From Sordariomycetes sp. S80-01Y (lineage: Eukaryota > Ascomycota > Sordariomycetes), in NCBI GenBank assembly GCA_037042185.1, contig JAXQJY010000030.1, positions 744,001-808,000 on the forward strand: DNA of 64,000 nt, in the 5' to 3' direction. The notes beneath the pieces are model-generated. The model was not told the origin of the DNA. It searched no databases and saw nothing but the letters and a program-made list of their open reading frames with translations. Numbering within the stretch: the stretch's first letter is position 1; every line of letters begins with the position of its first letter. A program made the translations under genes and the position numbers. Below, one piece after another: positions 1 through 18,489 of the stretch.

Positions 1-418
1 CGACGAGGCCCCAGAAAAAGTAGGTTGAAATGGTGTTGAACCCGGCAGCTTTGAGCTTCTGGAATACCTCTAACCACGACGAGGCTCCGGGATACCTGTT
101 ACGGCGCAGCCTGGGTCAATATTTCGCGGGGACGATTCGCTGGTCAGGAACAATACCGGAAGCCGTGGACCTCGGCGGAGTATATCATGACGCGCTCGTC
201 GTTGATCTTGACGGAATATTCATCCCAAGAGACCTACGCACGAGCGAGATTTAGAAGTACTCGTGATGTCAGGGGGGGACATCACATGAGGAGTGGTCCA
301 TGGCTTGACTGAGACTTACCATGGAAGAGTTACCACATGAAGACGGCGCAGACAAGGAAAATGCGCCGCGAACCAGACCGGCCGCTGCGAGGAACAGCGT
401 CAAGAACAGGAAACGCAT
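1..418 (-). CDS. GH35 beta-galactosidase, secreted (5' part only)
   Basis: This is the N-terminal part of an extracellular beta-galactosidase that removes terminal beta-galactose from plant polysaccharide side chains. Exons on the complement are 418-320, 233-157 and 95-1, with introns of 86 nt (donor GTAAGT) and 61 nt. The first 33 codons begin with a clear signal peptide (MRFLFLTLFLAAAGL). The second and third exons then read VSWDEYSVKIN, RVMIYSAEVHGFRYP, WLEVFQKLKAAGFNT and STYFFWGLV, which is the diagnostic start of the GH35 barrel (family pattern W-D-x-x-S, I-x-S-x-E-x-H, W-x-D-x-x-x-K-x-K-x-x-G-x-N). Only about 90 residues of a roughly 1000-residue family lie in the window, so the catalytic glutamates are not visible. 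It is divergently placed from the Zn2Cys6 gene at 1179. The family call is firm and the exact substrate is unknown. Confidence 0.85.
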
Positions 419-1178
419 GCCGGGGACAGGGGTTCAGATGAAATCACAGAAGCGCTCCCTCGGAAGTTGCAACAGATTTGCAGACAGCCGGGGGCGTGCA
501 AACGCACGTGTTTGGTATTTATAAAAACCACTGTATATCTACAAAACCCTAGCACAAGATTCAAGGCGCGGCAATTCAAAAAGACCCGACGGCTCGGGCG
601 AGCAATGACTGAACCACAGAGCAAATCCGCCTTTCCAGAAAAGCTCCACCAGGTCGGAGAAACGATCGGGGTTTGTGCCGCGAGGTGCAATGCGAAATTA
701 TCCGCGGGAAACATTGGGGCAACACAGATCCAGATTTTCACACGCTGTGACAAGCAGTACAGCTAGTTACGAGTATCTTATGTAGAAGGCGGACCTCCCT
801 GCCTGAGAGAAGCAAACCTGATATGTACCCGATGCTGTAGCGACTGCTCGTATCTGTAGACCACTGCCCACCTAACATCACCACTACTAGACTAGTAGCA
901 ATAGGCAAAAGGGATCATGTAGAAAACTCACTGGTCAAACGAACCCCGCTTCCCCGCATTACGGTACAACAAGACCAAGCACTAGATGGGACGGGTCGGG
1001 GTAAATACGGGGTTGTGCTTTTCATCTGTCTTGGTCGCATCTCAATCAGTCTCATCTCGTCCAAGTCCACCGTCATGCGCTTCCCCATGTAGACGCTTCA
1101 CCCCGGAGGCACACTGCCCCTCATCCCGTCGTCGCCAATTGACAAGCAAGCAGTGACGGGCTTCAGCAGCGCCTGGCA
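419..1178. other. Shared divergent promoter between GH35 and Zn2Cys6 genes
   Basis: 760 bp with no supported coding frame. It separates two divergently transcribed genes of the CAZyme cluster and probably holds both promoters. Apart from the TATA box of the GH35 gene I see no confident motif. Confidence 0.5.
516..523 (-). promoter_or_regulatory. TATA box of the GH35 gene
   Basis: TATAAATA on the minus strand, 98 nt upstream of the GH35 start codon. Spacing and sequence fit a core promoter. The call rests on sequence only. Confidence 0.45.
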
Positions 1179-3511
1179 ATGCCCATGACCTCCCCCCCGT
1201 TGGAGGCGGCCGAGGGCTCGACAGCCTCTGGCCGGCCGCACAAGGTGCGCAAGACGCGAGCAGGTCGCGCCGCCCCCCAGCAGCAGCAGAACCAGCAGCC
1301 CACGTGGAGCCCCGAAGGTGTCGAGGATGCTTTGGACAGCGCAGGCGAGGAGGCGGCGGCGTCTGAAGTGCGCTCCTGTGAGAACTGTCGCCGCAGCAAA
1401 CTCAAGTGCTCGCGATCGAGCCCGTGCAGCAAGTGCGCACTCAAAGGCGTCCCGTGTGTCTACGAGCCTACCGACAAGAAGCGAGGGCCTCGTCCAGGGT
1501 ACATCGAGGAGCTTTACCGCCGCATCGATGCCCTCGAGCACATGGTGCTGGGCCAGTCGCTCATGCTGAAATCCGAGCACATGACCCCGTCTGAATCGTC
1601 AGCTCCAACCACCATTCGAGAGGCGCTCGACCTGGAGCGCCACCGCCTCGGCGAGCGTGCTCTCAGCTACTATCGTGGGGAGCAAGGGGAGCAGAGACAG
1701 CAATTCCAGCAGGGCAAGTTCGGCGCTCAGCGGCAAGACTTCTCACGCCTCCAAGTTGCTTCTTCGGCCCAGCAGCAACAGAGCCCTACCAGCTCCGCGC
1801 CTTCTGGAAACCGTGAGCGCACGCAGCATGACGCCAATCTGTAAGTCAAGATTTTCTCTCGCTCGCCGCAAGGGCGCTGCTGATACCGACGCCGTCCAGT
1901 CCAGCCAACCAAGTGGCCTCCCTGTCCCACGACCTTTTACAACAGCTATCTATCGCCTTCCGTCACCAGATTCAGCCATGGGTTCCTATTCTGTGCGAAC
2001 GGGACGTGACGGCAATGCTGAGGAGGTACGAACCTGCACACGCTCTCGAACCGCTTCTCCAGGCCATGTTTGCCGCCACAAGCCCTTATGTCACTCCCCT
2101 CCGTAGCAGTCACGAGCAGTACTTCGCAGCTTGTCTCGAAACCGACACTCGAAACGTATTACAGTCCGCCGGGCTGAACCAGCTGCGTTCCTCGGTCATC
2201 TTGATGTTTCTTCTCTTTGGGAAGGGGTCCATCGACAACCACTGGGGACTGATAACGTATTTGCCGCAGCTTGCTCAACGCGCCGGCCTTCATCTAGAGA
2301 ACCATCATTTGACGAGCGAGCATCGCGAGTTTCGGCGGATGAGCAAATTTGACGATGGCAGCGACCAGGGCTGGACCAGCACCGAGACGGCGCGACGACT
2401 GTTTTGGAACCTCTTATTGCTCGACCACTTCGCTGCAGCCTTGTCTGGGACGCGGCCCGGCTTCGACGTGCAGGCCATCCGTCGCCTACTCCCCTGCGAC
2501 GGCCAGCACTGGCATGACGGAACCCCCGTGCACACGCGCGAGTTTGTCCCAGCTTCTCTCGTCACCCAAATGCAAGCGTTCGCCGACACCTCCATCGGCG
2601 GTCTGGCCTACCTCATAGAAGCCACTGACATCCGTGCCATGGTCATGGCTTTCGTATCTGCGCCTCGAGATGCGCTCGCCCTGAAACGAGATGCCCGGGC
2701 ATGTCTACAGGAGTTTCTCAATCTAGACCTCGTCATGACCAGCTGGAAAGCACGGCTTCCCGTTAGATATCAGCAGGCAGCATACGATGAAAACGGCTAC
2801 ATGGACCACAATGTCACCCTTGCGCATCTCACCCACAACACCTCGGGCATCTTGCTTTACCAATGGCCACACGCCATCGACTGCGCAACCGCCGCCGGGG
2901 CCAACCTGCAAACAACACTGTTGCCTCAGCTATCCTTGATAAAACAGGTCGCCAAGGAGATATCGAAAATCTGCATTCGCTTTCTGCTCCACCGACATTA
3001 CCTCCTGTCTCCGCAGTTCTCCTTCTGCCCCTTCATTGCCGCTCGCGCCCTGCTGGCCTATGCAAGCTGGATGATAGAGCCCGTCGATGAGGACTATGGG
3101 ACGCTCTGTTCCGTGCTGGAAGAGGCAGGGAAGCGTTGGGATGGCGCCTTTTCCGGCGCCACACCTGGAGATGACTTTAGTGCTACGATCCCGCACGGAA
3201 ACTTTGCTACGATGCTGCGCCAGCGCTTGGAAGTAGACGCCAAGAATCCTTCGTCTATCGACCTTACAGCTCCTACTATTCACCTGCTACGGGAGATAGG
3301 TTGCATTGATGGCCTGGCGGGGGAACTGGAGATATCGGCTGCGGCAGACGGAGAGCTTGCGGTCGACGCGAGCGGCAGCACCATCGAGTCCGGTATGCCA
3401 ATGATTCCCTCATCAATAGGCATCTTGGACGACCTCAATGGTGCCATGTCTTTCCATTTGTCGACAAATCCTGGCAACCCGGATGCTCGCTTCTTTGCTT
3501 GGCCGGATTGA
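1179..3511 (+). CDS. Zn2Cys6 transcription factor of the CAZyme cluster
   Basis: Predicted fungal-specific transcription factor of 757 aa, exons 1179-1840 and 1900-3511 (59-nt intron, donor GTAAGT). The DNA-binding binuclear zinc cluster is at residues 67-93 with spacing CX2CX6CX6CX2CX6C (C67, C70, C77, C83, C86, C93). It is followed by a basic linker and a short heptad-like dimerisation segment (YIEELYRRIDALEHMVLGQ, about residues 108-126). A Gln-rich stretch lies near residue 190. The rest has the length and helical character of the fungal middle-homology region, including the segment around LFWNLLLLDHF. The protein lies between the GH35 gene and the sugar porter, so a pathway-specific activator of this cluster is the natural inference. 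I cannot assign it to a named regulator (GaaR, RhaR, AraR types) from sequence alone. Confidence 0.85.
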
Positions 3512-4559
3512 TCGCTTTAGCAAACCCTCGCCGAGCCTCGAGATGGCTGGTAAATGGGTGGCATCTTATATAGCACTATGTACAGGACTGGGCGTTTTTA
3601 CGCTGCCCCTTGACTTGATCTTGGTGTTGACGCAATGATCCGCCGAGCTGACTTTACTCATCGGAGTATACTATCCAGTCGGGACTTTCGAGCATCGAGA
3701 GTATTGGGAGTTTCAGGCTATCGTCAAGGGGCTGTCGAGTCTCTACGCCGCTGTAGTGCACCGTGTTGATAACATTAGCAGGTCAAGGATTATCACTTTG
3801 AAATAATCAAGAAGGGAACTAAGGTCGAAGCCCCGACCCGTTCCGAATTTCTGACAAATATGCTCCACGTTGCTACGAAGGTCGCTACTCTTTAGAGCAT
3901 GGAACCGAAGAACCTATCTATAGGCAGCGTAATCCCCACGGAGCTGAATTGAAGTTTGCGTTTCTTAGTTGGTCATAGCAGAGTAACTCTGACTTCATAC
4001 GAGAAGCGAGAGAAGCGAGAAATAAGAACATTAGAGAGTCCGTACTACTCACTTTGTCTGAAGGGTTTGGAAAAAGCCTCCGGACGGCAACCCAGACGTG
4101 GCAACGGAGCACCCCACGCAACTCGCGCCCTAGTACTTGTAGCCACGGCCACCCCAACATATCGGAAGAACCCTCGGAAATGCCCCGTACCAACCTCTTC
4201 GTTAACCACAGAGTCCCCCGCAGTCTCCCCGCACACCTGGAGACGCCCGCGCTGGAACTCAGGTCGACCTCGAAGGGCCATTCGACGCCTGCATGGTACC
4301 CTCCCCTGCCCCGGTGGGTCCCTACTTGAACTATCAGACCGTCAACAGTGTTGAGCGACATCCGAGGATGCGAGTTCAGCGCGATCCCGTGCTGCTTAAG
4401 AAGCTGCTTTCTCCTCGTCTCGTCTTCTTCTGCTCCTCCCAAATGAGCTACTCACTTCTCGGCTAGTGTCTGGTCCCGCTCGCACAGCAGCTTCATATAT
4501 CTTCAGTGTCTTGGACTTCTTGATTCGTCCTTGGCTCCTTACCCCTGCCTGTTTCTACC
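3512..4559. other. Gene-free stretch, promoter of the sugar porter
   Basis: About 1 kb without a supported gene. It holds the 3' end region of the regulator gene and the promoter of the porter, including a pair of CreA-like sites and a TATA-like ATATAT about 60 nt before the porter ATG. Confidence 0.5.
4216..4232 (-). promoter_or_regulatory. Paired CreA/CRE1-type sites (GCGGGG x2)
   Basis: CCCCGC occurs twice, at 4216-4221 and 4227-4232, i.e. GCGGGG on the minus strand. This fits the SYGGRG consensus of the carbon catabolite repressor CreA/CRE1. Closely spaced pairs are the usual functional arrangement. The pair lies about 330 bp upstream of the porter ATG, which fits glucose repression of the cluster. 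Function is inferred. Confidence 0.35.
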
Positions 4560-6227
4560 ATGGATGAGCCCAAGACACGTTCTGCCGACCCTGTGGCGAA
4601 GCTGATCGAGAACTCCGAAAAGGGTTACGCTGCCTTCAACATTGATGCCGAAGTTACGCTTCCGTCCGAGGATGGCCCCTGGCTACCCTTTCTGCGCAAG
4701 CGACTGCCTATGATCCTCCGCATGGCCATAATCTATGTCGCCGTACTGAACGTTGGCTTCGATATGTCCATCGCCAACACCACGCTGGGCATGCCGTCGT
4801 TTCGAAAGTACTTTGGCCATGAGCAATCCCCTGGCGAGTACGTTATATCCTCCGTTCACCAAGCCGGCTGGACGGGTGGCACGGCCGCTGGCCAGGTCAT
4901 CATGGACATCCCGGGAGGCTGGTTGGCCGATCGGTACGGCCGCAAGTTCACCCTCACTCTCTCGGTCATCATCATCATCATCGCGTCGACGGTGCAGGTC
5001 ACGGCTCAGAACATCGCGGCAATCATCGCCGGAAAGGTTATCTTCGGCATGGGCTGCGGGCTCTACATCTCCTTCTGTACCTCATACACGGCCGAGCTCG
5101 CCTCCCCGCGTCTTCGAGGAATTGCTTGCATGGCGGTCAACTTCTGCATCCAGGGCGGCATGTGGATTGGTTCGGGCACGGCGCTGGGACTGACCACCAA
5201 CTACCCCGACGTCAACGACACTCGCTCATTCCGCTACATTTTTGCGTTCCAGTACCTGTTCGCGGGTCTCTACCTGCTTGGCGTGTACTGGCTGACCGAG
5301 TCGCCGAACTTCTATATCCACCAAGAGAAGTACGAGAAAGCGGAGTGGTCGATCCGTCAGCTCTACGGCCCTGACTATGATGTACAGCGGCATCTATCCT
5401 TTCTCATCAAGACGTCCGAGGTGGAACGGCAGACACGCCAGGCTGGGAAGTCTATCAGCTACAAGGAGCTGTTTCAGGGCCGCAATTTGATCCGCTTGAT
5501 GATCTCAGCCTGTATCATCGGGCCTCTCTTCATGGGAACTGCCTTCTGGCCCAACTACCAGACCTACTACTTCGAGAAGGCCGGTGTCGCCAACCCCCAA
5601 GCCATGAACTATGGAGCCACTTCGGTGGCCATCGGTACGAGCATCCTTGCTTGGTTCCTCATTGAGCCCGTCGGTCGGCGTAAGCTGTGGCTTCTTGGCG
5701 CGGCTGGTATGTCCATCTCGAACCTGATCGGCGGCTTGATGTGGATTCCAGCCACTCGGGGTCAAGAGAAGCTGGCTGGTAAGGTTGCAACCGCCTTCGT
5801 ATTCATCTGGAACGGCTTCTACGACATTGGCCCCGCCAACATGGGCTATGCCATCACGTCAGAGGTGCCATCTAGTCGCGTGCGGGTCCGCAACAACGCC
5901 TTCGTTCATGTCTTCAGCCACCTCTCCAACCTGGTCATCTCCTACGTTGTTCCGTATCTGTACAATGACGACTCCACCTCTCTCGGTCTCGGATACAGGA
6001 TGGGTTTCATCTGGGCGGCTTTCGGCTTCGTGATCGTTGTCTGGGGTTGGTTCTTCATCCCAAACGTGGCCGGCTTCAACGCGTACGAGATCGATCAGCT
6101 CTTCGAGAGCAAGGCTCCGCCTCGTAGGTTCCACAAGGCCAAGTTTGATGAGCACGATCTGCTCATTTCTGGTTCCATGGACAAGAGCTACCGCGGCGGA
6201 TCCGGAGGCTCGACCTTGGCGGTCTAA
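4560..6227 (+). CDS. MFS sugar porter (oligosaccharide/hexose permease type)
   Basis: Single-exon 555-aa proton-coupled sugar transporter of the plasma membrane. It has twelve hydrophobic segments and the sugar-porter signatures GGWLADRYGRK (loop 2-3, about residues 119-129), the ELASPRLRG and YWLTESPNFYI motifs (after TM4 and TM6), and a long central loop with the SYKELFQGRN segment typical of fungal permeases. The N terminus is cytosolic and lacks a signal peptide. General appearance is closer to alpha-glucoside/lactose-type permeases than to high-affinity hexose carriers, but substrate cannot be read from sequence. It sits directly downstream of the cluster regulator on the same strand. 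Because the neighbouring GH88 and GH39 proteins look cytosolic, an oligosaccharide cargo is plausible. The first helix region contains a run of isoleucines encoded by ATC repeats. Confidence 0.88.
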   Translation: MDEPKTRSADPVAKLIENSEKGYAAFNIDAEVTLPSEDGPWLPFLRKRLPMILRMAIIYVAVLNVGFDMSIANTTLGMPSFRKYFGHEQSPGEYVISSVHQAGWTGGTAAGQVIMDIPGGWLADRYGRKFTLTLSVIIIIIASTVQVTAQNIAAIIAGKVIFGMGCGLYISFCTSYTAELASPRLRGIACMAVNFCIQGGMWIGSGTALGLTTNYPDVNDTRSFRYIFAFQYLFAGLYLLGVYWLTESPNFYIHQEKYEKAEWSIRQLYGPDYDVQRHLSFLIKTSEVERQTRQAGKSISYKELFQGRNLIRLMISACIIGPLFMGTAFWPNYQTYYFEKAGVANPQAMNYGATSVAIGTSILAWFLIEPVGRRKLWLLGAAGMSISNLIGGLMWIPATRGQEKLAGKVATAFVFIWNGFYDIGPANMGYAITSEVPSSRVRVRNNAFVHVFSHLSNLVISYVVPYLYNDDSTSLGLGYRMGFIWAAFGFVIVVWGWFFIPNVAGFNAYEIDQLFESKAPPRRFHKAKFDEHDLLISGSMDKSYRGGSGGSTLAV

Positions 6228-7198
6228 AATACCACTTTGAGCCACGGCCTTACGACTTAGGGGCTTTACTGTGTGAAATGTCATCCCTGTCTACGTTGAA
6301 TCAGTCACAAGCCCATATGGAAGGTAATCTCACTTCCTTCTATAACAAGATGAGCCACGTTTATAAGTATCATCTTACGTTATCACCATCCCACACATAT
6401 ACCAAGCAATGTTTGTAGGAGTGCAGCGAGGTGGAGAGCAAGAGATGAGGGAGGGCAGTGTAATCAAGTTCGTCGACATCTCTGATCGCTCAGTTGGAGA
6501 TTGTCATGGGAAGTAGCCTTATGACTAGTAGCACCGAAACAGTACCCGCCTCTGTGTGCACAATATTTGCTTGACTGTATTTGTGCATACATGACAGGCT
6601 CTGCTGTTGTCTCTAGTCGTGATGTTTTTCCAGTTGACTTGGCGTGAAGGCTCAGCGTTTTAGGTGTCTTCCTTCGGAACGCAATGACCCAAAAGTATCT
6701 GCGATGACTTAGGAGATCTCATGAGACGCCAAGACTAGAGCGTCATCGTAGCCATTCAACCGCTTTCTCTGGATAGTGAGTACACGATGAATGGACATGT
6801 GAGCAAGTGCATCCCGAGCGGACCACTGCAGCGGCGCCCTGACGGTGAATCCTTTCCTCTATTGAACCTCTCTCGTTACTCTCACCCTGAAACAATCTGC
6901 CTCTTACTTTCCTTTCGTCATTTCCTGCACATTATTCTGGTAATTTCATGACCCTATGAGATCGAACATTGTCTTCCAATGTTACGAGTGGGGTATGGAA
7001 GAGTTTATCACAGCATCTGTGCCTATCACCATCCCCCATACAGAAATATTTGTGTCTAAATCATTGTATTTAAAGTGATGCAAAGCTGTATGAGTCTCTA
7101 GAATGGGTACGTAGGCCATGAGGAGAGCTGGTTACACAACGTTGACCTAGAAGTCACAGGCGCATGGCTCCGCATCATTTTCTCTAAGCCCCAGCCAT
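6228..7198. other. Gene-free stretch between convergent genes
   Basis: About 970 bp between the convergent porter and GH88 genes. No coding frame with recognisable protein, RNA gene or repeat was seen. It probably contains both 3' UTRs. Confidence 0.5.
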
Positions 7199-8464
7199 TC
7201 ATATAGACATCGCTTGACTCAACTTCAAAAGACGGTTGCCAGCTTCGAGGAAATAGTAGTCAGCGTACACACATCCATGCTCCACCAGGCGGAACAGAGC
7301 ATTTTCGTTGTCATTGCTCGTGCTGCGCTCAAACAAGGCGTCACCGCTACTGGTGGCGTGGCGCACCACCGTGTCGAGAATTCTCAGAGCCGCGTCGAAG
7401 TACCTCTCGCATCCCGGTGCTAGAGTGTGCAGTAGGAGCAGGCCCGAACTGGCACACGTGGCCGCTGAGACGTCCCAGACACCGGGCCTAGGAGCATCAA
7501 AATCCCAGTAGACTATGCCATCGGCCTCGACGCGCGAGATAAAGTAGTCGGCGATCCGAATGGCCGCGTCGAGGAATTTCTGGTCTTTAGTCCACTGGTA
7601 GACACTGGCAAATCCGTACAGAGCCCAGGCCTGACCACGTGCCCAAGTAGACTCGTGCGCGTAGCCCTGGTTCGTTAGGCGGTCGCGCACGGAGCCGTCG
7701 ATGGCGTTGTAGTTGACCAGGTGGTACGATGAGTAGTTTGAGCGGATGTGATTCTTCAGCGTGGTTTCGGCGTGGGCTGTAGCGATGTCAGCGAGGCGGT
7801 GGTCCCCGGTGTACTTGGCAGCGTAGTAAAGAAGATCAAGGTTCATCATGCTGTCAATGACGACGACGAAGTCTACGTCCTTTTGGTTTAGGTCGTACTC
7901 CTTGGTGCGAGCACCAGCCCAGGACCGGATAACGCCAGTGGTCGAGCTAAAGCGATTGGCCATAGAGCGCGCAGCATTGACGATGACCGAAAGGGCCTCC
8001 TCGGAGCCCGTTATCTGGTGGTCTCTCGCAAACGACGGCATGATCATAAAGCCCAAGTCGTGGTTGTCGGTCTTGAACTGCTCCTTTGCCATCTCAATTT
8101 GCCATTTTCTTGCAGCCTCGAGAATGCTATCGCTTGGCATGGAAAGCGGCTTGATCAAGCTCCGCTCGTAGAGAAGCCAGACACTTCCTGGGAAAAAGCC
8201 CGAGGTCCAGAAGCTCGAATCGAAATACACGTAGTACGGTAGACCAGGCGGGGTGTAGTGTGGAAACAAGTCGGGGGCATCGTGACGCGTGAGGACCTTG
8301 CTGGCAATTTTCCAGATGCCGTTGACGTATTCTGCTGAGAGCACCCCATTGACCAGCTCTGAGGCGGCGGATGTCTTCGTTGCATCTACTTCAAGGACGC
8401 TGTCCGTTCCGTTCCCCAACAGCGGATCCGACCGTGGCCCTGGGAGTTGCGTCAAGATACTCAT
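7199..8464 (-). CDS. GH88 unsaturated glucuronyl hydrolase, cytosolic
   Basis: 421-aa intronless enzyme that hydrates the 4,5-double bond of an unsaturated uronic acid at the non-reducing end of lyase products, releasing it by the vinyl-ether mechanism. Family landmarks are FDSSFWTSGFFPG (residues 81-93), HDLGFM with Asp136, VVIDSMMNLDLLYYA with Asp204, and GYAHESTWARGQAWALYGFA. The two aspartates correspond to the catalytic pair of bacterial GH88 enzymes (established for the family). The first ATG in frame gives an N terminus with no signal peptide, so the enzyme should act inside the cell. A TATAAG element lies about 40 nt upstream. It heads a run of four minus-strand cluster genes. Presence of GH88 implies that a polysaccharide lyase feeds this pathway, and none is visible in the window. 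Confidence 0.88.
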   Translation of the reverse strand: MSILTQLPGPRSDPLLGNGTDSVLEVDATKTSAASELVNGVLSAEYVNGIWKIASKVLTRHDAPDLFPHYTPPGLPYYVYFDSSFWTSGFFPGSVWLLYERSLIKPLSMPSDSILEAARKWQIEMAKEQFKTDNHDLGFMIMPSFARDHQITGSEEALSVIVNAARSMANRFSSTTGVIRSWAGARTKEYDLNQKDVDFVVVIDSMMNLDLLYYAAKYTGDHRLADIATAHAETTLKNHIRSNYSSYHLVNYNAIDGSVRDRLTNQGYAHESTWARGQAWALYGFASVYQWTKDQKFLDAAIRIADYFISRVEADGIVYWDFDAPRPGVWDVSAATCASSGLLLLHTLAPGCERYFDAALRILDTVVRHATSSGDALFERSTSNDNENALFRLVEHGCVYADYYFLEAGNRLLKLSQAMSI

Positions 8465-9611
8465 GGCAACAGGAGGCACGGGAAATGAATATAACTATAA
8501 CTTATAGAGTTGCACGACACCGAAAACCCTCCGCATTTGCGAGGGTGGGAGGTGCTGGGTGTGAAAAGGAGGAGGGTTAAAGCAACGGATTCCAAATAGC
8601 CGTTGAACGATTGCTCAGCGACAAAGTCCTCCTTTATCAAGCTGCCAGCGCGTGGACCCATGGTCTCGTGAGTGAGTCCCCATGGTGTCCTTCTTCTTGT
8701 CTGGCTTTGCTGCGCGCGTCCACCTTAGGTAGGATTGAGACCAGTTCGGAGGCGATTCCGAAGGTAGTTCCGAACCCGTCGCCGATGGTACTCCCGATCC
8801 CCCAAGCTAAGTCAACACCGCTTTGGAGTGGTAGGTACAATGAGGGGACATTCGTGACGGGACAGCCCCGTCAATATTACGTGTGGCCTATGAGACTACG
8901 TGAGAACTCCCCCGAGCCTCAACAATGATGAGATCGAGCCGAGCGCGGTGCTGCACGGCTCGCATTCTACCGGTGAGGGCAACTCAGGTAATGGTCATCT
9001 CTAAGTTGTATGATCATGAAAAGGATTCATTTTATCGATTTGTTGTTGATTATGATATGATACCTTGGGCAGTGGTAAGCATGTAGAACGAGGCATTCTG
9101 ATCAGGCGACTTGTTCATCAAGACACCAATTCATAATACCCTTTGCGAATTTTAAGTTCCCACAAGGATAAAAGTCATTCTTGCCATAGATGACGCGCCC
9201 ATAGTCATCACACATCAATACGCATGTGGTTATCCTTGACTAGCAGAGTGAATAGTTGAAAGGTCCGGACAGTGAGTGTGCGGTATCGTATCGTTTGGGG
9301 CACGGCTCCTGAAAAGAGTACATCACGGACGAGTTATTACTTCTTACTTCCAAAATTCCAAAAGCCACTCATTTCACTTATTAACTTGGGACGAGTGTTC
9401 TCAAGTCATCGCAGTCTTTTCCAAGCGCGAGTCGATTGGTGGTCTGTCTACCCGGAGAGCTTAGGCCGAAAGTTGTGCAGGGCCTACACGCGAATGAGCA
9501 ATTTGATCAGCTATCATGATGCGGCAATACACTTAGTTCTTCTGTTATCATAGAGTGTATTGTTCTATACAAAAGAACAGTATGTAGGCTTTATGATTAT
9601 TTGACAGGATA
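8465..9611. other. Gene-free stretch upstream of GH88
   Basis: About 1.15 kb holding the GH88 promoter and the 3' region of the GH39 gene. Open frames here are short and resemble no known protein. AT-rich around 9000-9200. Confidence 0.45.
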
Positions 9612-11532
9612 CTATCGGGCTGGGACCTGTAACACGGCAACCAAGGTCCAAGGCGCAAGGCTCTCCTCGAACACCAGCACGCCATCTTCGTTGGCACTTA
9701 TGTAAGTGGTTTCAAGGCTAGAGGCGTATTCATTGAGGTCTTTGGCTGTTTCACGAGCCAGGTTCGAAGGCGAACCCAAGCGCCTCCATGCAGACACCGC
9801 ATCGCCTCGACCACCTGGTGATAGCTTCTCGACCTTGAAGCGCGCTCCGGACCTCAGGTTTTCAAGAACGAGTCGGGCTCTCCGCGGGCTTCCGATTTTG
9901 AGTACATCCTCCGCCCCTTGACGATCCAGGTAAGCCGGCGGCGGTGACGTCTTCAGCTCGGGCGGATAGTGGAACATCAAGGCTGAAATCTGACCAGTTT
10001 GAACGTCGCGACTAACAATACCATAGTCATCGTGCCGCTCCAGTATCTGTGAGTAAAGACCGTGGAGTAATCTAAAGGCATGAAACACCGGCTTGGGAAT
10101 GCCCTGAAGGTTGATCAAGCCAAAGCCACCATCTGTTTTCAAGAATGAGCCCATTAGTCACCTCACCAAACGAGTAATTGACTTAGAAGCACTTCAGGGC
10201 GCAGGAAAGTAACTTACGGAAAGGCGTGGCGCCAGCACCCTCCTCTTCGAAAACGTCAGTAAACGTCCAGTAGGCGAGTGTGTCGACCTGGTTCAAAGAC
10301 GCGAGCATAGTGCGTGCAACGTATATGGCTGCCGGTACCTCGTCGTGGCTGTGATCTCTAGACGACGGGCTCGAACTCCACTCGGTAAGATGAATCTCAG
10401 CCGAGGAATAGGCGCTCTCGGCCACCAGCTTGCGAATCTTAGCCAGGTCTTCAGGGGTTGCCTGGATATTCCGCACACGTTTCGCCATGTTTCCTGAAGT
10501 ATCCAGGGCCCAGTCCGTGGGATAAGGATGGCAGGAAACAAAATCAACGGGTAGATTGCTTGAGTGACACCACTTCAGGAAATGCTCAATCCAAACGGGT
10601 CGCCAGTGAAGAGGATCTATGTCTTGTACCTGTTGAAGAGAACTGTAAGCCTAGGGCACGTCAAAAGCGCGCCCCTGTTGAGGTGAAGAGCTTACATTTT
10701 CAAGCGTCTTCTGCACCTCATAGTCCTCCCACTCGTCGTCAAAACGGGTGTCTGGCACGAAATTGCTGGTAGCCGGGCCACCCACGCGGAGTCTGGAGTC
10801 CGCCCTCTTGACTGCTTGGACGGTTGTCTTGTACAAGTCGTAGTACTGCGACCTGCTCCCAGTAAAGAAAGGGTGCAAGTTTGGCTGCACGGCCTGATTA
10901 GTGCATGTCGTTGATTCTTTGTGGGTGCAAAAGCTTACCTCGTTCCAACACTCGAAATACCACGTTCGAACTTCATCGAGCCCATAGCGGCGGATCCAGT
11001 GTTCGACGGTGGCGTACACAAGCTCGTTCCATTGACCAAGATCTTGTGGGGGGCTAGCATTTGCCTTCCACCAGAATACCTTCGGAAAGCTTTAGTAAGC
11101 TTGATACAGAAGGCATGGACCTGAAAATTGGATAGTCCCACGAAACACAACGTGAATCAAGGATCGGGTCAAACGTACTGTACCCAGCTCAGAGGCTATG
11201 GGCGCGGGACAAAAGCCAAACTCGACGAATGGTCGCACGCCAATATCCAACATAGAGTCAAAAAGGGCATCTATGTATTGGAAGTTGTATGCATGCTTGC
11301 CGTCTACGACGTGCACCACGTGCATATCATCGTGATAGAGTCCATGGAAGCGAACATACTTAAAGCCGCACGCTGTGCTTGCCAGCTTCAGATGGTTCTG
11401 CCAGTCAGCGCGGAGGCCCTCATGAGCCCGGCCGGCCCCGACAACTTGTGACCAAAACTGGTTGAGAGTGCCAGTCGCTGGCCCGTTGGCCGATACATGA
11501 AGATGGCCACGGCCCAAGGAATCATTCACCAT
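9612..11532 (-). CDS. GH39 glycoside hydrolase (beta-xylosidase-like), cytosolic
   Basis: 538-aa GH39 enzyme from five exons on the complement: 11532-11179, 11079-10939, 10884-10696, 10629-10218 and 10132-9612 (introns 99, 54, 66 and 85 nt; total 1617 nt). The catalytic barrel starts at once, without a signal peptide. Landmarks are FKYVRFHGLYHDDM, the acid/base in YFECWNEPNL (Glu165), VDFVSCHPYP, the nucleophile in IHLTEWSSS (Glu311), and the C-terminal GGFGLINLQGIPKPVFHAF that precedes a small beta-sandwich domain. GH39 includes beta-xylosidases, alpha-L-iduronidases and alpha-L-arabinopyranosidases, and the exact specificity is open. In this cluster it likely completes degradation of an imported oligosaccharide. 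The first ATG after the upstream stop is at 11532. The longer frame above it begins only with TTG. Confidence 0.87.
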
Positions 11533-11889
11533 AGTGGTGACGATCCAGGACTGAGTGATTTGAATAAGTAGCTTCGGCAGAATATATTCAAGAGTAGTTG
11601 GAACAAATTGCAACTCTAGAAACTTTTATATTTTATGTCATTCTGGAGCTACATCGTGCCCGGGGTCGAGGCGGGAGCTTCCTCCGATGGTTCTGCCGAA
11701 GACCGAGAGAGGCCCTGTCAGTTGTGTCGTACAATCTCCATTATCTCACGAATGTTGAGGCAAGATATCGAAGAGGCCGAAAGACTAGTGACATTCATGA
11801 ACTAAAGCTCTTCTACTATGCCCACAAGCCTCGACGGCGCTTCCATAATGGTCATCCAGCTATTGTGGAAAGCACAGGACTCTGTGGCA
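11533..11889. other. Spacer between GH29 and GH39
   Basis: 357 bp between two genes transcribed in the same direction (minus). It should carry the GH29 3' UTR and the GH39 promoter. No other feature recognised. Confidence 0.5.
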
Positions 11890-14262
11890 TCATGAACCAC
11901 AACTACCGCCGTGGTACTCTATCTTAAAGACCCAGCAGTACTTGTCACCAGAAATAACATCATCCGTAACTTCGATCCATAGCTTGCCATCACTCCCAAG
12001 TCCCCATTCAACATCAGCCTCTCCTTCCATACCCACCGCCACAACTCGATCGCCCTTCAGCACAGGAAGTTCAGATTCAATCTCAAGACGACCCGTTCCG
12101 GGCTTGCTCAAACTCAAAACATAGAAGGCATCGTTGTTTTGAGTGAACCTCAGGTCCTTCTTGCCTGAGGTTTCCTGAGGCGTGACATACCAGTAGGTCG
12201 AGTTGTGTACGGCTTCGCTGTGAGCATGAATCCAGGCACCCGCCTCCCTGAGGTTCTCGGCCATGGTGTCGTGAATCGTGCCATCGGCCTTGGGTCCAAT
12301 GTTGAGCAGCAGGTTGCCATTCTTGCTCGTCATATCGACCAGGTTATGGATCAAGGTAGTGGCGTTCATGATCTCATCATCCTGGGTGGCACGGTTGAAA
12401 CCATAGCTGTACGGGTCCATGCCTTGGTTGCTTTCCCACTTGCGTCGCTGCGGGACGCTAAATGTTGCGTACTCTGGCGTATCAAAATCCGAGGCCCAGG
12501 GGCTCCCGCACCGGTCGTTGATGGTGACTTGGCGGCCCTGGCTTCTTGCCCAGTTGAACCAGTCTGCAGCAAAAACATCAGTGCCGTTCGAGGCACCAGC
12601 ATCGCACCACATGATATCGGTGTCATAGTTGTAAGCCAGAATCTCCATCTGAGGCACCATCAAGTCCTCAATGAAGTCACCGATCGGCAGCCGACCAGTA
12701 TAGGGTTCCTCGAGTCCGGTATAGGGATTCCGAGCGATGATACCCGGATGCGACGTTGATGTGACTCGGTCGAACTGGGTGAAGCCGTACTTGCCCCAGT
12801 CAGGGTTGAACCACTCAGGTAAAGAAAAGTACGTCCCTCTCTTCAAGTGAGGCTGATGTGTCTTTGCGGCTTCAAACAACTCGCCAAGTACATCGCGCTT
12901 GGGTCCATAATGAAGAGATGTACGGTTTGTCGTGGCGCCCGCGTCAAAGAGACTGAATCCGTCGTGGTGTTTCGTAGTGAGGACGAAGTATTGCGCACCC
13001 GAATCCGAGATGAGATCTACCCATTCCTTGGGGTCATACGCCGACGCAGTGAAGTTGTCAAAAAAGTCGTCGTAATTCAAGTCTGGCCCGAATGTCTCAA
13101 GACGGTATGCATTGAACCCGGACCGGTCAGCAGCAGCGTGCTCGTTGATACGCGTGCTGTACCACCAGAACCACTCAGCGTAACTCTCAAAAGGTGTTGA
13201 GTTACCCCATCCCGGTACGGAATAAGGGCCCCAGTGTATAAAGATACCGAATTTGGCCCCATCATACCAGTTTGGTGCCTCGTGAGTAACCAAGCTTTTT
13301 GAGTCGGCGGTCCAGTCCTCGAGACCGATATCAATATCATCGAAGGTTTGGGAGGCGGTATGGCCTTTGGGCGTGCTTATGTGGACAGTCACGTCACTAG
13401 TTGAACTGCCGTCAACAACGACATCAATTCTCTTCTGGTCACCAGGGCAGAACCTCTTGACCACGGCGGGCTCTACTGTTGTGACCCCCTCAGCTTCAAT
13501 GGAAACCTTGACGTTAGACGCACACTTCGTCCCAGCATGGTTGGCTACAACCTCCACAAGCTGCTTGCCGTTCGCGTCGATGTTTTGAGTGGGCCTGACA
13601 GTCTGAACGTCGACGCCATTATTGTCAGACTCCCACAAAGATAGAGAAAAGACGTGTAGACGACCTGTCGTGGAGTTTGTTGTGTTGGGCAGCATAATGC
13701 CGCTCAGTGTCTTCCCACTATCGATGTGAGCATAGCGCTCGTAGATATGCGAGGCGTTGTGATTGGTGTCGTTGTGTGTGAAGAAATAGGGGTAGGCAAC
13801 CTCGCCCCTTCGGATAGCCAAGAACCACCAGAAGGCATGGGCACGGACTTCGGCGGTGGAGGTGGTGTTATCCGTGTAGAGGAAGGTCAGGTTGCCCGAG
13901 ACAGTTGTGGATCGCACATCTGAGGTGAGGAGGACCGAGGCAGCGAAGTAATTATCCGAAGGAGGGACGTCAATGACCTGTCCAGCACAGATGACATTGT
14001 CCGATGCGTCAGGATCGGGATTGTACCCAGGGTAGAGATAGTTGATGCCGCTCGTGGACGATGTGAAGATGCCGTCTTTGCCAACAGGATCTGCCGGGAA
14101 AGCTTGTCCAAGAGCATCAAGACTTGCCTCGCCCGGACGAGAGCCGAACGCTTTGTTGTTGAAATAGTCGTCGAGGGGAATTCGAACACTTCCGTGGTCG
14201 CCGGACCGGGCCAAGCCCAGGGGCAAGGCCCATAGCAAGGCTACAAGACTACCCAGTCTCAT
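11890..14262 (-). CDS. GH29 alpha-L-fucosidase, secreted, with N-terminal extra domain
   Basis: Intronless 790-aa secreted retaining alpha-L-fucosidase. Residues 1-19 form a signal peptide. Residues about 25-320 form an N-terminal beta-rich region with many N-glycosylation sequons (NLT, NTT, NHNAS), not part of the catalytic fold. The GH29 barrel runs from about 330 to 690: WYDGAKFGIFIHWGPYSVPGW, YFVLTTKHHDGFSLF, and DTDIMWCDAG containing the nucleophile Asp554, then NGNLLLNIGPKADG. A C-terminal beta-sandwich completes the protein. Fucose caps xyloglucan, RG-I galactan/arabinogalactan and arabinogalactan proteins, so the enzyme fits a side-chain trimming role beside GH35. Homologous fungal proteins of about 800 residues share this long N-terminal extension, as far as I know, so the length is not an artefact. 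Confidence 0.9.
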   Translation of the reverse strand: MRLGSLVALLWALPLGLARSGDHGSVRIPLDDYFNNKAFGSRPGEASLDALGQAFPADPVGKDGIFTSSTSGINYLYPGYNPDPDASDNVICAGQVIDVPPSDNYFAASVLLTSDVRSTTVSGNLTFLYTDNTTSTAEVRAHAFWWFLAIRRGEVAYPYFFTHNDTNHNASHIYERYAHIDSGKTLSGIMLPNTTNSTTGRLHVFSLSLWESDNNGVDVQTVRPTQNIDANGKQLVEVVANHAGTKCASNVKVSIEAEGVTTVEPAVVKRFCPGDQKRIDVVVDGSSTSDVTVHISTPKGHTASQTFDDIDIGLEDWTADSKSLVTHEAPNWYDGAKFGIFIHWGPYSVPGWGNSTPFESYAEWFWWYSTRINEHAAADRSGFNAYRLETFGPDLNYDDFFDNFTASAYDPKEWVDLISDSGAQYFVLTTKHHDGFSLFDAGATTNRTSLHYGPKRDVLGELFEAAKTHQPHLKRGTYFSLPEWFNPDWGKYGFTQFDRVTSTSHPGIIARNPYTGLEEPYTGRLPIGDFIEDLMVPQMEILAYNYDTDIMWCDAGASNGTDVFAADWFNWARSQGRQVTINDRCGSPWASDFDTPEYATFSVPQRRKWESNQGMDPYSYGFNRATQDDEIMNATTLIHNLVDMTSKNGNLLLNIGPKADGTIHDTMAENLREAGAWIHAHSEAVHNSTYWYVTPQETSGKKDLRFTQNNDAFYVLSLSKPGTGRLEIESELPVLKGDRVVAVGMEGEADVEWGLGSDGKLWIEVTDDVISGDKYCWVFKIEYHGGSCGS

Positions 14263-15230
14263 GATACACCAATTGACTGGTCGAGATGAGCCGAAGCTTA
14301 CCAGAACGAGTTTGTATAGACATTGTGCAGTTCATGGCTCTATTTGTACCCAAGCCAAGGATCAATTGTCGACTGTTGAGGAGGGGAACCCTACCAGATT
14401 CCTTCAACACCCTCGCACTTCAGTCCGAAATGCGGAGTCTGGGATCAGCAAATTGTCGATAGCATCATGGTCCAAGTGGAGTTTACCGCACCCACGGAAC
14501 TCGCTATCACCGAGCGAATCGAAACATCTGCCGGCTCCACTCCATGCAATACGGTCCCTTAAAATATGCAACGTTCCAACGGCGATGGTAGAAAGCCGAT
14601 GGTTATGATAACCGACGGCCAATTCCTGAGACCCGGGACCGGGCCCTGACTCGTGAGTTCACTGCCACATGGCAGCAGTCCGTCGTCTAATCGCGCGTCC
14701 CATCCGCATAGACTGTCAAAAAAATACTCGATCTAGTTAGCGTCATCGTTATCACTCGTCGTTCTGCCTAGTCTATGCGGGGTCAACCGGCATACTCCTT
14801 CAGGCTACTCTGATTGTTGGAGCACGAGATGGGTAGCTTCAAATGACTCTATGATTCGGCGAACGAGGGGATTCACTCACAAAAATAGGCATCCATCGAC
14901 TGGAGGCATCTTGCGAAAAGTCGGCTTGCTGGTCCTACAGGCTTCGTCATACCTTGACACCCGAAGACGTAAGCCTCGAAGGCGTAGATCTTAAAGGGTA
15001 GCTACAGATATGGAGCCCGTCGAACACATACACGACTGCTCTTTTTGTGACGCGAGGAGATCTAAAGATATTAGGCGAATTGCGACATATAAATTCACTT
15101 GGAAACCAAGGTTTCTCTACACTGCACGGTGATCGAGGTCGAAAACGAACAACACGCTTACGTCCATTTTGGCTTCGAAACGGTAGCTTCTTGACTGCCT
15201 TTTTAACTGAGTTCAACTCATCCTATTCGA
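14263..15230. other. Gene-free stretch, promoter of GH29
   Basis: About 970 bp containing the GH29 promoter and the 3' region of the CE12 gene. No coding frame or RNA gene supported. Confidence 0.5.
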
Positions 15231-16038
15231 CTATCTGATGAAAGGCTGCAGGCTTGTCGTACCGTTCATCCCCGAGGCGATAGCCTCCGCAAAGGCCCCG
15301 GCAATAGCATCAGCACCCTCAGGACTGGTGTGCGTATGATCATTGGGATAGAACGCATTGACCGCGTCGGCGCCCAGCGCCAAGTACATGTTGCTGACGG
15401 CCTGGAAGTTGTCCACAAAGGTAACGTCGGGGCTCCCAATCGCATCCGCAGCGGTCTTCTGGTACCCGACGAAGCGGCTCGGCGCACCCTGGTAGGTGCC
15501 TGTCTCCCACTGGTTGTTCGGCGTCTGAGAGCTCAGGATAACGGTGGCGCCCTTGTTGAGCATGAGCTGAGCGGCTTGGATGACGTAGAAGACGAAGGTG
15601 TAGACAGTCTCGCCCGTCTTGTCCGAGATGCACGTTTGAGTGCCAGCACCAGGACAGTCAGAGCGGCCGTTGTCGTTGGACTCGGGTGAGCCGCCGTCGT
15701 TGTGGCCGAACTCAATGACGACGATGTCTCCGGACTGGACGAGGTCGGCGACAGCTTGGAAACGGCCTTCGTTGGTGTAGGACCGTGCTGAGCGGCCGCC
15801 GATGGCTCTGTTGACGGCGGGAATGGTCAGGTAGTTGCCGATGTAGGCACCCCAGCCTTGATTTGGATCAGCCACGAAAGTAGCCACTCCCTTGGGCAGA
15901 ATAAATACCGTCTGTATCACCGTCGTTGGCGCCCGCTGCCGCCATGGTACTGTCACCACAGAAGTAGGCTGTCTGCGCTGTCGCAACCCGCAGGCCACCC
16001 AGCATCAGGGCCGAGAGGGACGGAATGGAGAACTTCAT
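15231..16038 (-). CDS. rgae: CE12 rhamnogalacturonan acetylesterase, secreted
   Basis: 251-aa secreted SGNH esterase that removes acetyl groups from the galacturonic acid backbone of rhamnogalacturonan I. Exons on the complement are 16038-15909 and 15856-15231 with a 52-nt intron (donor GTATTT, acceptor CAAG); total 756 nt. The signal peptide ends near residue 21 (VATA-QTAYF). CE12 motifs are all present: GDST with the nucleophile Ser30, GWGAYIGNY, NRAIGGRSARSY (block II), IEFGHND (block III, residues 91-97) and NDHTHTSPEG with Asp216 and His219 completing the triad. The open frame alone would start inside the protein, and the upstream exon is required to supply Ser30. It closes the CAZyme cluster; the next gene is the repair gene rad14. 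Confidence 0.92.
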
Positions 16039-16719: not shown

Positions 16720-17976
16720 TCACATGACGAGCTCCTCGACCTCCATTCCGCAATCCGTGCACGTCTTCACCGTCATCCCATCCTCGTTGACAACAGCTCT
16801 CCCCCAGTCGTGCACGTGCTTCCCGCTACCACCGATCGTGTCTCCGAATTTGCTCGCGCCGGTCTTGGCAGCATGGCCCGCTTGTCTCCTGAAGGCGTCC
16901 GTCCTTGTCTTGCGCTTCAGATCGAGCAGCTTCTCCTTGAACTTTGACTCCTTGCGCGCCTTCTTCTGCGCTTCTCGCCTCTCGTACTCGGCGTCGAGCG
17001 CTTCTGCTGAGCCCCATTTCGTGTTGATGGCGTATTCCTCGACTTGGAAGCGAAGGAAGAGCATCATGTCGTGCCAGTGAGATTTGTGCGGGTTGGGTTT
17101 GTTGAGATGTGGCAGTAATTCGGGATCGCGGAGTTCAGCTGAATCGGTCAGATAAAGACTTACATAAGACAAAGAATACTCACGGTCGGTGAGGAGATAG
17201 TCCTCCTTTGCTTCTGTTTTTGTCAGAAGCGAGTACTTCTCGGGCATCTTGTCCTTGCAATTCTGGCAGACAGCGATGTGAAAAACCTCCTCCCAGACCC
17301 AGTCAACCTCATAGCTATTACACTCTCGACATCGTTTTCGCTCCTTCGGATCGTCTAGAACGCTCAAACCAGGCTCGTACGGGCCGGTCTTGTGCCTCTT
17401 GAGGTTCTTTATAAGCTGCAACCTTTCCCATTCTTGCACCGTCATGTGCTTTGGCCTTTGGTCCTCCTCTTCTTGCTTCTTAGAGCCCAGCGCGTAGTTA
17501 TGGGGATCATCTTCGGTCGACAGGAAACCACCCTTCGTATCGGTCATTGAGCTCATGTTGTAATCCACAAACTTGGTGAACTTCTTCGCCGGCCGCAGCG
17601 CGCCCTCGTCGCCTCGATTCGTTCCATCTCGGTTCGTCTTCGTGTCCTCGGATATCGCATTGTGCGGTCGCTTCCCGTTCGCGGGCTTAATGACGTGCAC
17701 ATCCTCCGTCGGAACAAAGCCAGACGCAGTCTTGGGTATCTGCGGCGTCGTCCCGCTCGCGCGCTGCTCGGCCTCTCTCTGATCGCGAATCGCCTTTGCT
17801 CGTAGCCGGTTCTCTTCCTACCGTGCCATGAAGAAGTCAGCCTAACCAGCCACCCCCAAAAAGTCCCAAAGATAAATCATGAGGCTACCCACGATGCGTC
17901 GTGTCACCTCGGGCGTCGGTGGCGACGTCGGAGGGCCCGAAGACTGTTGCGGTGGCGGCGTCGAGCGCTGCACCAT
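16720..17976 (-). CDS. rad14: Rad14/XPA, DNA damage verification factor of nucleotide excision repair
   Basis: 378-aa nuclear scaffold protein of nucleotide excision repair. Exons on the complement are 17976-17893, 17817-17184 and 17138-16720 (introns 75 and 45 nt; total 1137 nt). After a Pro-rich start comes the conserved helix RLRAKAIRDQREAE. The XPA zinc finger is at C191, C194, C212 and C215 (CX2C-X17-CX2C) within RCRECNS and VCQNCKDK, followed by EKYSLLTKTEAKEDYLLTD and PELRDPELLPHL, the DNA-binding core. Splicing at 17184/17138 restores the DPEL junction, which supports the 45-nt intron. A long basic coiled-coil helix leads to the C-terminal KTCTDCG motif, which matches the TFIIH-contact end of animal XPA. 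The start at 17976 is preferred over an in-frame ATG further upstream because homologs begin close to the STPP segment. Confidence 0.93.
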
Positions 17977-18489
17977 GTTTGCCGCTGTCGCGATGCAGGA
18001 GATTGAACCCGCAGCGCGGTAGATCAGGGTGATTTTGGATGCGCGAGGAGTGTATGTAGGCAAGCAAGGCGCAGGGGGCAAATTTGAGGTTGGCGCAGTT
18101 GAAGGGTTGAGTTTGATGATTCACGGTGTTGGAGGGGCCCATCGTGGCACGGCTGATGTCACTTTGCACACGCGAGTCCCGGAACCCTGAATCCGGGGTT
18201 CGGCTGACCCCGATTGGTAATAGCATCATGTCTTGCATGTGAAGACTGTTTATAGATTATTCTAGATCTTGTAGATCGGAATCCTCCTGGGAAGTAAGGC
18301 AGATTTGTAATAAACAGAACCAGAACCATATGCTGTGTTCTCGTCAAGGCGCCGGCGCATGCAAAGGCTTCACGCAGGTCTATCCATCCCAGCATGTATA
18401 TTGTACATCCTACACATGATCACTCCGTGTACAGAGTCAAGCCATGACCCGTGATTCTGATTAGAACCGCCGCAGGCAATTATCCCCCT
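17977..18489. other. Spacer between pho88 and rad14
   Basis: 513 bp between two minus-strand genes, carrying the rad14 promoter and pho88 3' end. No other feature seen. Confidence 0.5.

Follow-up and report, generated by a model that had tools for sequence, protein, structure and literature searches.

Can a fungus keep the regulator, the transporter and the enzymes for one polysaccharide side by side, as bacteria do in their polysaccharide utilization loci (PULs)? The question is raised by a 64,000-nucleotide stretch of the genome of Sordariomycetes sp. S80-01Y (GenBank assembly GCA_037042185.1, contig JAXQJY010000030.1, positions 744,001–808,000; hereafter the window), in which a preliminary description, made from the letters alone, had noted seven contiguous genes: GH35, a Zn2Cys6 regulator, an MFS sugar porter, GH88, GH39, GH29 and CE12. 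The genome searched comprises 30.87 Mb in 16 contigs, the window corresponding to G000:C13:744001-808000. The 50 kb to its left were added to the analysis, for a total of 114 kb, and negative coordinates continue the window numbering leftward. All seven genes were found side by side up to rad14, with domain or PDB matches bearing out their families and GH35 running off the left edge. The PUL-like combination of regulator, porter and complementary enzymes is present. The cluster also continues to the left, as had been anticipated, with a second MFS porter, GH31, a regulator-like gene and, where one polysaccharide lyase was expected, two: a PF14099 (PL20-type) protein and a predicted secreted toroid lyase. 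A core of these genes, marked by a common promoter site, resembles a bacterial PUL in fungal form, apparently under joint regulation. It is probably a locally regulated catabolic cluster that works in the manner of a PUL on an acidic glycan with 4-linked glucuronic acid.

The core consists of the following genes.

-7064 to -6248, reverse strand, PF14099 lyase (PF14099 58.1 bits, cut-off 29.9)
-5225 to -3540, forward strand, toroid lyase with a predicted PL17/PL38-like fold
418 leftward to about -3360, reverse strand, GH35 beta-galactosidase (PF01301 and BetaGal domains, 13-exon model)
1179 to 3511, forward strand, Zn2Cys6 regulator of 757 residues (exons 1179–1840 and 1900–3511; PF00172 33.7 bits, PF04082 38.6 bits)
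4560 to 6227, forward strand, MFS sugar porter of 555 residues (intronless model; PF00083, Sugar_tr, 238.7 bits)
7199 to 8464, reverse strand, GH88 unsaturated glucuronyl hydrolase of 421 residues (PDB and fungal homologue matches)
9612 to 11532, reverse strand, xylosidase-type GH39 of 538 residues (five exons; PF01229)

The GH35 gene crosses the left window edge, and its first exons alone (1..418) lie inside the window. The sugar porter also matches TIGR00879 at 231.1 bits, slightly below the cut-off of 237.8.

The site that marks these genes is the direct repeat TCGG-N4-AC-N2-TCGG, which occurs in seven copies in five cluster promoter regions, upstream of the PF14099 lyase, the toroid lyase, the GH35/regulator pair, the porter, GH88 (twice) and GH39. 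The copies within the window are listed below.

654 to 669, forward strand, in the GH35–regulator intergenic region, 236 bp upstream of the GH35 start codon and 510 bp upstream of that of the regulator
4162 to 4177, forward strand, 383 bp upstream of the porter
8758 to 8773, reverse strand, 294 bp upstream of GH88
8782 to 8797, reverse strand, second GH88 site, 318 bp upstream
11684 to 11699, reverse strand, 152 bp upstream of GH39
16832 to 16847, within the coding part of rad14, some 0.8 kb away from CE12

The seven promoter copies lie 152 to 510 bp upstream of start codons, and each of them is oriented along the reading direction of a downstream cluster gene. No site, exact or with one mismatch, was found upstream of GH29, CE12 or the GH31/porter pair. 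The proposal that the seven genes form one unit for one glycan is therefore not upheld, as the site extends over the lyases, GH35/regulator, porter, GH88 and GH39 and leaves out GH29 and CE12.

Nine promoter regions, 7,979 bases in all, were first screened for 48 CGG-type dyads against 300 shuffles; this yielded 11 CGG-N9-CGG dyads against a mean of 4.0 and seven CGG-N8-CCG against 1.93, each equalled in one of the 300 shuffles; k-mers of 7–9 bases common to the promoters were near the shuffle level. The CGG-N8-CCG palindrome was rejected as a shared element, since by eye its sites have no common inner letters. TCGG-N4-AC-N2-TCGG was recognized on inspection of the CGG-N9-CGG set. In a scan of TCGG-Nk-TCGG for k from 0 to 20, the spacing k=8 was found eight times in the promoters, against an expectation of 0.38 based on the remainder of the 114 kb, and every other spacing at most twice (probability 7.7e-9; 1.6e-7 after correction for 21 spacings). 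The inner AC is present in seven of these eight promoter repeats versus one of five elsewhere, that one being in rad14. The full pattern has six copies in the window (five in cluster promoters and one in rad14), whereas shuffled sequence gives 0.20 and in no case out of 100 as many as six, and eight copies in the 114 kb, seven of them in the cluster, where no one-mismatch copy was found. Genome-wide there are 80 copies, versus 157 for the reversed pattern. At the outside rate, the Poisson chance of eight copies in the 22.8-kb stretch is 1.5e-15; since these same sites supplied the pattern, the fairer figure is that of the spacing scan. Surroundings were fetched for eight of the 72 outside copies, chosen for their likeness to the cluster sites, and four of the eight lie in predicted coding sequence, with a fifth at its edge. 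Overlapping 12-base tandem copies of the site were also observed at G000:C8:1431377-1431404 and G000:C11:1843164-1843191; these could be short tandem repeats instead of binding sites.

The regulator encoded between GH35 and the porter has an intact zinc cluster (1377–1457), followed by KKRGPRPGYIEEL, and its KKRG...GYI linker is reminiscent of AmyR. AmyR and InuR bind CGGN8CGG direct repeats (PMC5468973). The cluster site is likewise a direct CGG repeat, and differs in its CGG-N9-CGG spacing, the T that precedes each CGG and the inner AC. We infer that the window Zn2Cys6 regulator pairs with TCGG-N4-AC-N2-TCGG.

Both lyases are divergent. The PF14099 protein resembles the PL20 glucuronan lyase of Trichoderma reesei (PDB code 2zzj) in carrying PF14099 above the cut-off. 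It is one of four PF14099 matches in the genome, the strongest of which, on C16, scores 209.3. One glutamine is conserved across the three copies that were aligned. The paper on the related protein Cip1 describes a glutamine lining the cleft of glucuronan lyase (PMC3764139). A second divergent PF14099 protein, at G000:C10:3109664-3110068, carries the cysteine-rich block of the cluster copy, and judging from their sequences the pair seem to form a subgroup distinct from the C16 copy. The start of the toroid lyase was set at -5225, an extra first exon in the gene model being judged false. Its fold was read from a structure model made for homologue P0002 of Sarocladium strictum instead of the protein encoded here, and is predicted to comprise an alpha/alpha-toroid and a CBM6-like C-terminal domain. 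The structures most like this model are alginate lyases of families PL17, PL38 and PL5 together with glycosaminoglycan lyases, and it appears to share the toroid fold of BoPL38. The lyase stands apart from the PL17, PL38 and PL5 enzymes in its CBM6-like part, its low identity (8–16% in the rows shown; 13–14% to PL38) and its lack of any PDB match at E<=1 with the sequence itself. With the family profile, the best PDB match is at 0.046, and PL38 chains match weakly at 0.23.

The GH88 protein scores below the Pfam cut-off (PF07470, 24.5 versus 26.6 bits), and the whole-genome PF07470 scan did not pick it up. Its identity is assigned because PDB unsaturated glucuronyl hydrolases (3wiw, 6.2e-57; 1vd5, 1.1e-41) and close fungal homologues match it, and it is far nearer to the GH88 proteins of the PDB (6.2e-57) than to the YteR-like one (2.6e-4). 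DLGF and DSMMN blocks, which we take to be catalytic, are present. The 20 closest homologues, at 64–73% identity, include proteins of Stachybotrys, Fusarium and Clonostachys, and the next named relatives among the matches listed are from Mucoromycota (Bifiguratus, Umbelopsis) at about 48–52%. Relatives of these Mucoromycota have glucuronate-rich walls (PMC6433966).

GH39 matches ten beta-xylosidase sequences of the PDB at 2.1e-86 to 8.2e-81, the next group following at just 2e-12. It contains WNEPN and TEW blocks, presumably with the two functional glutamates, and is the sole GH39 found by the genome scan. A broken gene was considered and rejected: GT-AG introns, four in number, account for the in-frame stops between its open frames. 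Fungal names appear on nine of the 120 best homologues listed, the remaining named ones being bacterial. A tree built from 55 selected rows places its 10 fungal members on one side of a branch with a support of 100/100. This grouping fits a single entry into these fungi and, with the few fungal names among the listed homologues, the lone genomic copy and the four introns, makes GH39 a candidate for one old transfer from bacteria; since the root is arbitrary, the tree itself cannot show a direction.

Homologues of the core genes are also found together in other fungi. The homologue tables contain the best 120 rows each and give the longest contig per protein cluster, and contig sharing was read from equal contig sizes and tag numbers, not from DNA. 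The closest named homologues among the matches listed are from S. strictum (toroid lyase 69%, GH39 72%), as would suit an ascomycete close to Sarocladium, and there toroid lyase P0002 and GH39 P0121 share a 1,301,663-base contig, a result that shows the same contig only. In Clonostachys rosea, a 71,668-base contig is common to the toroid lyase (P0005, with the lyase-like P0015), GH39 (P0125) and GH88 (P0252), and a 34,216-base contig to toroid lyase P0007, GH39 P0126 and GH88 P0254. Another contig, of 47,342 bases, carries toroid lyase P0011 and GH88 P0257. On a 435,271-base contig of Fusarium solani, the toroid lyase (tag 011484) and GH39 (tag 011479) are five tags apart, and five steps also separate them here (lyase, GH35, regulator, porter, GH88, GH39); among the matches listed, GH88 is absent from that contig. 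The Stachybotrys matches, from two strains and on three contigs (25,618, 8,113 and 16,745 bases), are uninformative. Conserved co-location, as judged from these tables, holds for three genes: toroid lyase, GH39 and GH88.

In the mechanism that we propose, the secreted PF14099/PL20-type protein and toroid lyase would cleave the chain by beta-elimination, and secreted GH35 would take off beta-galactose. The unsaturated oligosaccharides would enter through the MFS porter, after which, inside the cell, the unsaturated uronate would be stripped by GH88 and a residue of beta-xylosyl type by GH39. Signal-like N-termini, judged by eye, are present on both lyases, GH35, GH29 and CE12, and on none of GH88, GH39 and GH31. 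The neighboring Zn2Cys6 protein would bind TCGG-N4-AC-N2-TCGG upstream of these genes and of its own gene. GH29, CE12, the far-left GH31, the second porter and the regulator-like gene adjoin the core and may contribute.

As for the substrate, the site-marked core is predicted to encode two relatives of uronan lyases along with a glucuronyl hydrolase, a beta-galactosidase and a GH39 of xylosidase type. This set favors a galactose- and xylose-bearing glycan with 4-linked glucuronic acid over rhamnogalacturonan I or II (RG-I/RG-II) pectin. Such chemistry occurs in gums, mucilages, arabinogalactan-protein glycan and microbial exopolysaccharides. The enzymes suggest a 4-linked-glucuronate glycan as the substrate class, be it a gum or mucilage, arabinogalactan-protein glycan, Mucorales glucuronan or another exopolysaccharide. 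Mucorales glycuronan consists of fucose, mannose, galactose and glucuronate at 5:1:1:6 (PMC6433966), and beta-1,4-glucuronate exopolysaccharides have also been described (PMC7601620). Both would fit the lyases, GH88, GH35 and GH29. GH39 is left unexplained by the Mucorales polymer, for which the source text mentions no xylose.

Several points weigh against a PUL-like cluster for such a glycan. The dyad screen is weak after correction for 48 tests, the site pattern was derived from the same sites on which it was tested, the single site of GH35 is oriented opposite to that gene, and one of the eight sites of the stretch lies inside the rad14 coding sequence. The PF14099 lyase is 20% identical to the strongest PF14099 copy of the genome, and its match to 2zzj is weak (0.0029 over 65 residues). 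The PL38 structures matched by the toroid lyase are alginate lyases. Additionally, many homologues have no same-contig partner among the matches listed: the lyases of Plectosphaerella, the GH39 proteins of Penicillium and Cadophora, one more GH39 from F. solani and several GH88 proteins of Fusarium.

A bolder form of the favored reading would make the locus a self-regulated eukaryotic PUL for the glucuronan-type polyuronide of other microbes, such as Mucoromycota walls or exopolysaccharide, with a GH39 that entered once from bacteria, its own cis-code in TCGG-N4-AC-N2-TCGG, and toroid lyases that may represent a new PL family or subfamily. We put it forward tentatively, as a possibility with the odds against it.

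Pectin was part of the original proposal. The genes would then act jointly on RG-I or RG-II: CE12 would remove acetyl groups from the RG-I backbone, and the other enzymes would shorten the side chains and the products of the lyases. CE12 is very near a fungal rhamnogalacturonan acetylesterase (PDB code 1deo, 1.1e-63) and contains GDS...HND...DxxH blocks, which we assume to be functional; GH35, GH29 and GH39 could act on RG side chains. This one strong pointer to pectin, however, sits outside the site-marked core, GH29 likewise lacks the site, and the lyase and GH88 types indicate glucuronate or other uronans. General Pfam scans of the locus genes, in which the models were not searched one by one, named no RG lyase, GH28, GH78 or GH105. 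Because the RG-I/RG-II reading leans on CE12, it is weakened to the point of being improbable, and the arabinogalactan-protein glycan named alongside it survives as a candidate.

Alternatively, the core might act on alginate, a glycosaminoglycan-like polymer or some other uronan unconnected with glucuronan. The structural matches of the modeled toroid lyase to PL17, PL38 and PL5 alginate lyases and to glycosaminoglycan lyases would agree with this, but a common fold proves no substrate, and GH88 together with the PF14099 domain suits glucuronate better; we give this explanation little credence. That the carbohydrate genes are adjacent by chance, with no common regulation, is very improbable for the core in view of the clustered promoter sites and the co-location of homologues in other genera, even though proximity-called clusters of carbohydrate-active enzyme (CAZyme) genes are common in Trichoderma (PMC8672877) and the site of the core is missing upstream of GH29, CE12 and GH31.

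The genes that adjoin the core are as follows.

-16020 to -14191 (gene end -14188), forward strand, regulator-like gene (Fungal_trans 18.0 bits, under the cut-off of 23)
-14166 to -11623, reverse strand, GH31
-10928 to -9179, forward strand, second MFS porter (MFS_1)
11890 to 14262, reverse strand, GH29 alpha-L-fucosidase (PF01120, Alpha_L_fucos, 286.9 bits)
15231 to 16038, reverse strand, CE12-type rhamnogalacturonan acetylesterase
16720 to 18142, XPA/rad14, the right-hand neighbor

From left to right, the order is thus regulator-like gene, GH31, MFS_1 porter, PF14099 lyase, toroid lyase, GH35, Zn2Cys6 regulator, sugar porter, GH88, GH39, GH29, CE12 and rad14, with mixed strands and three divergent pairs. 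No Zn2Cys6 pattern was found in -17600..-15700 for the regulator-like gene. The 2.1 kb that separate the far-left porter from the PF14099 lyase (-9179 to -7064) contain short, weakly scored frames only and may mark where the left-hand genes end and the core begins. Besides the named genes, no open frame in 1–16038 reached a score of 12 in the codon-bias scan. To the right (18.5–64 kb), the survey covered single open frames rather than every gene, and 10 scanned of 11 well-scored frames contain no CAZyme domain; they belong to Pho88, SnoaL, MFS (two), striatin, Mre11, epimerase and inositol phosphatase families, with two frames without family. A plasmid search gave no match.

Like bacterial PULs, the cluster places a regulator, a transporter, predicted secreted depolymerizing enzymes and predicted intracellular exo-enzymes side by side; it differs in its introns, separate promoters, zinc-cluster regulator and MFS Sugar_tr porter. 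In bacterial PULs, transport is by a SusC/SusD pair, the place of which is taken here by the MFS porter. The earlier premise that CAZyme genes of fungi are mostly scattered overstates the case, as seven Trichoderma genomes are reported to hold 26–35 CAZyme gene clusters (CAZ-GCs) each (PMC8672877). Under the rule given there (at least three CAZymes, or two plus a transporter or regulator, within at most two intergenic distances), GH35, regulator, porter, GH88, GH39, GH29 and CE12 qualify, with no other scored frame between them in 1–16038. The Trichoderma clusters are called by proximity, whereas here a promoter site marks the members and the core is lyase-based. The Aspergillus oryzae MAL cluster (malR, malP, malT) likewise combines a zinc-cluster regulator, a sugar permease and a glycosidase (PMC5468973), but consists of three genes for maltose and has no depolymerizing enzymes. 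No account of this cluster, or of a site-marked lyase-porter-GH88-GH39 unit, turned up among the papers listed in the literature searches. Fungal CAZyme clusters are already known, and relative to those papers the site-marked unit is the new aspect.

Proximity is the usual criterion for fungal CAZyme clusters, and here a promoter site tells which neighbors belong: it separates the lyase-porter-GH88-GH39 core from the adjoining genes and indicates a candidate regulator. The locus also reveals a group of putative fungal toroid lyases without a Pfam name. Two questions become directly testable, namely whether true PUL-like loci exist in fungi and which glycan this one serves.

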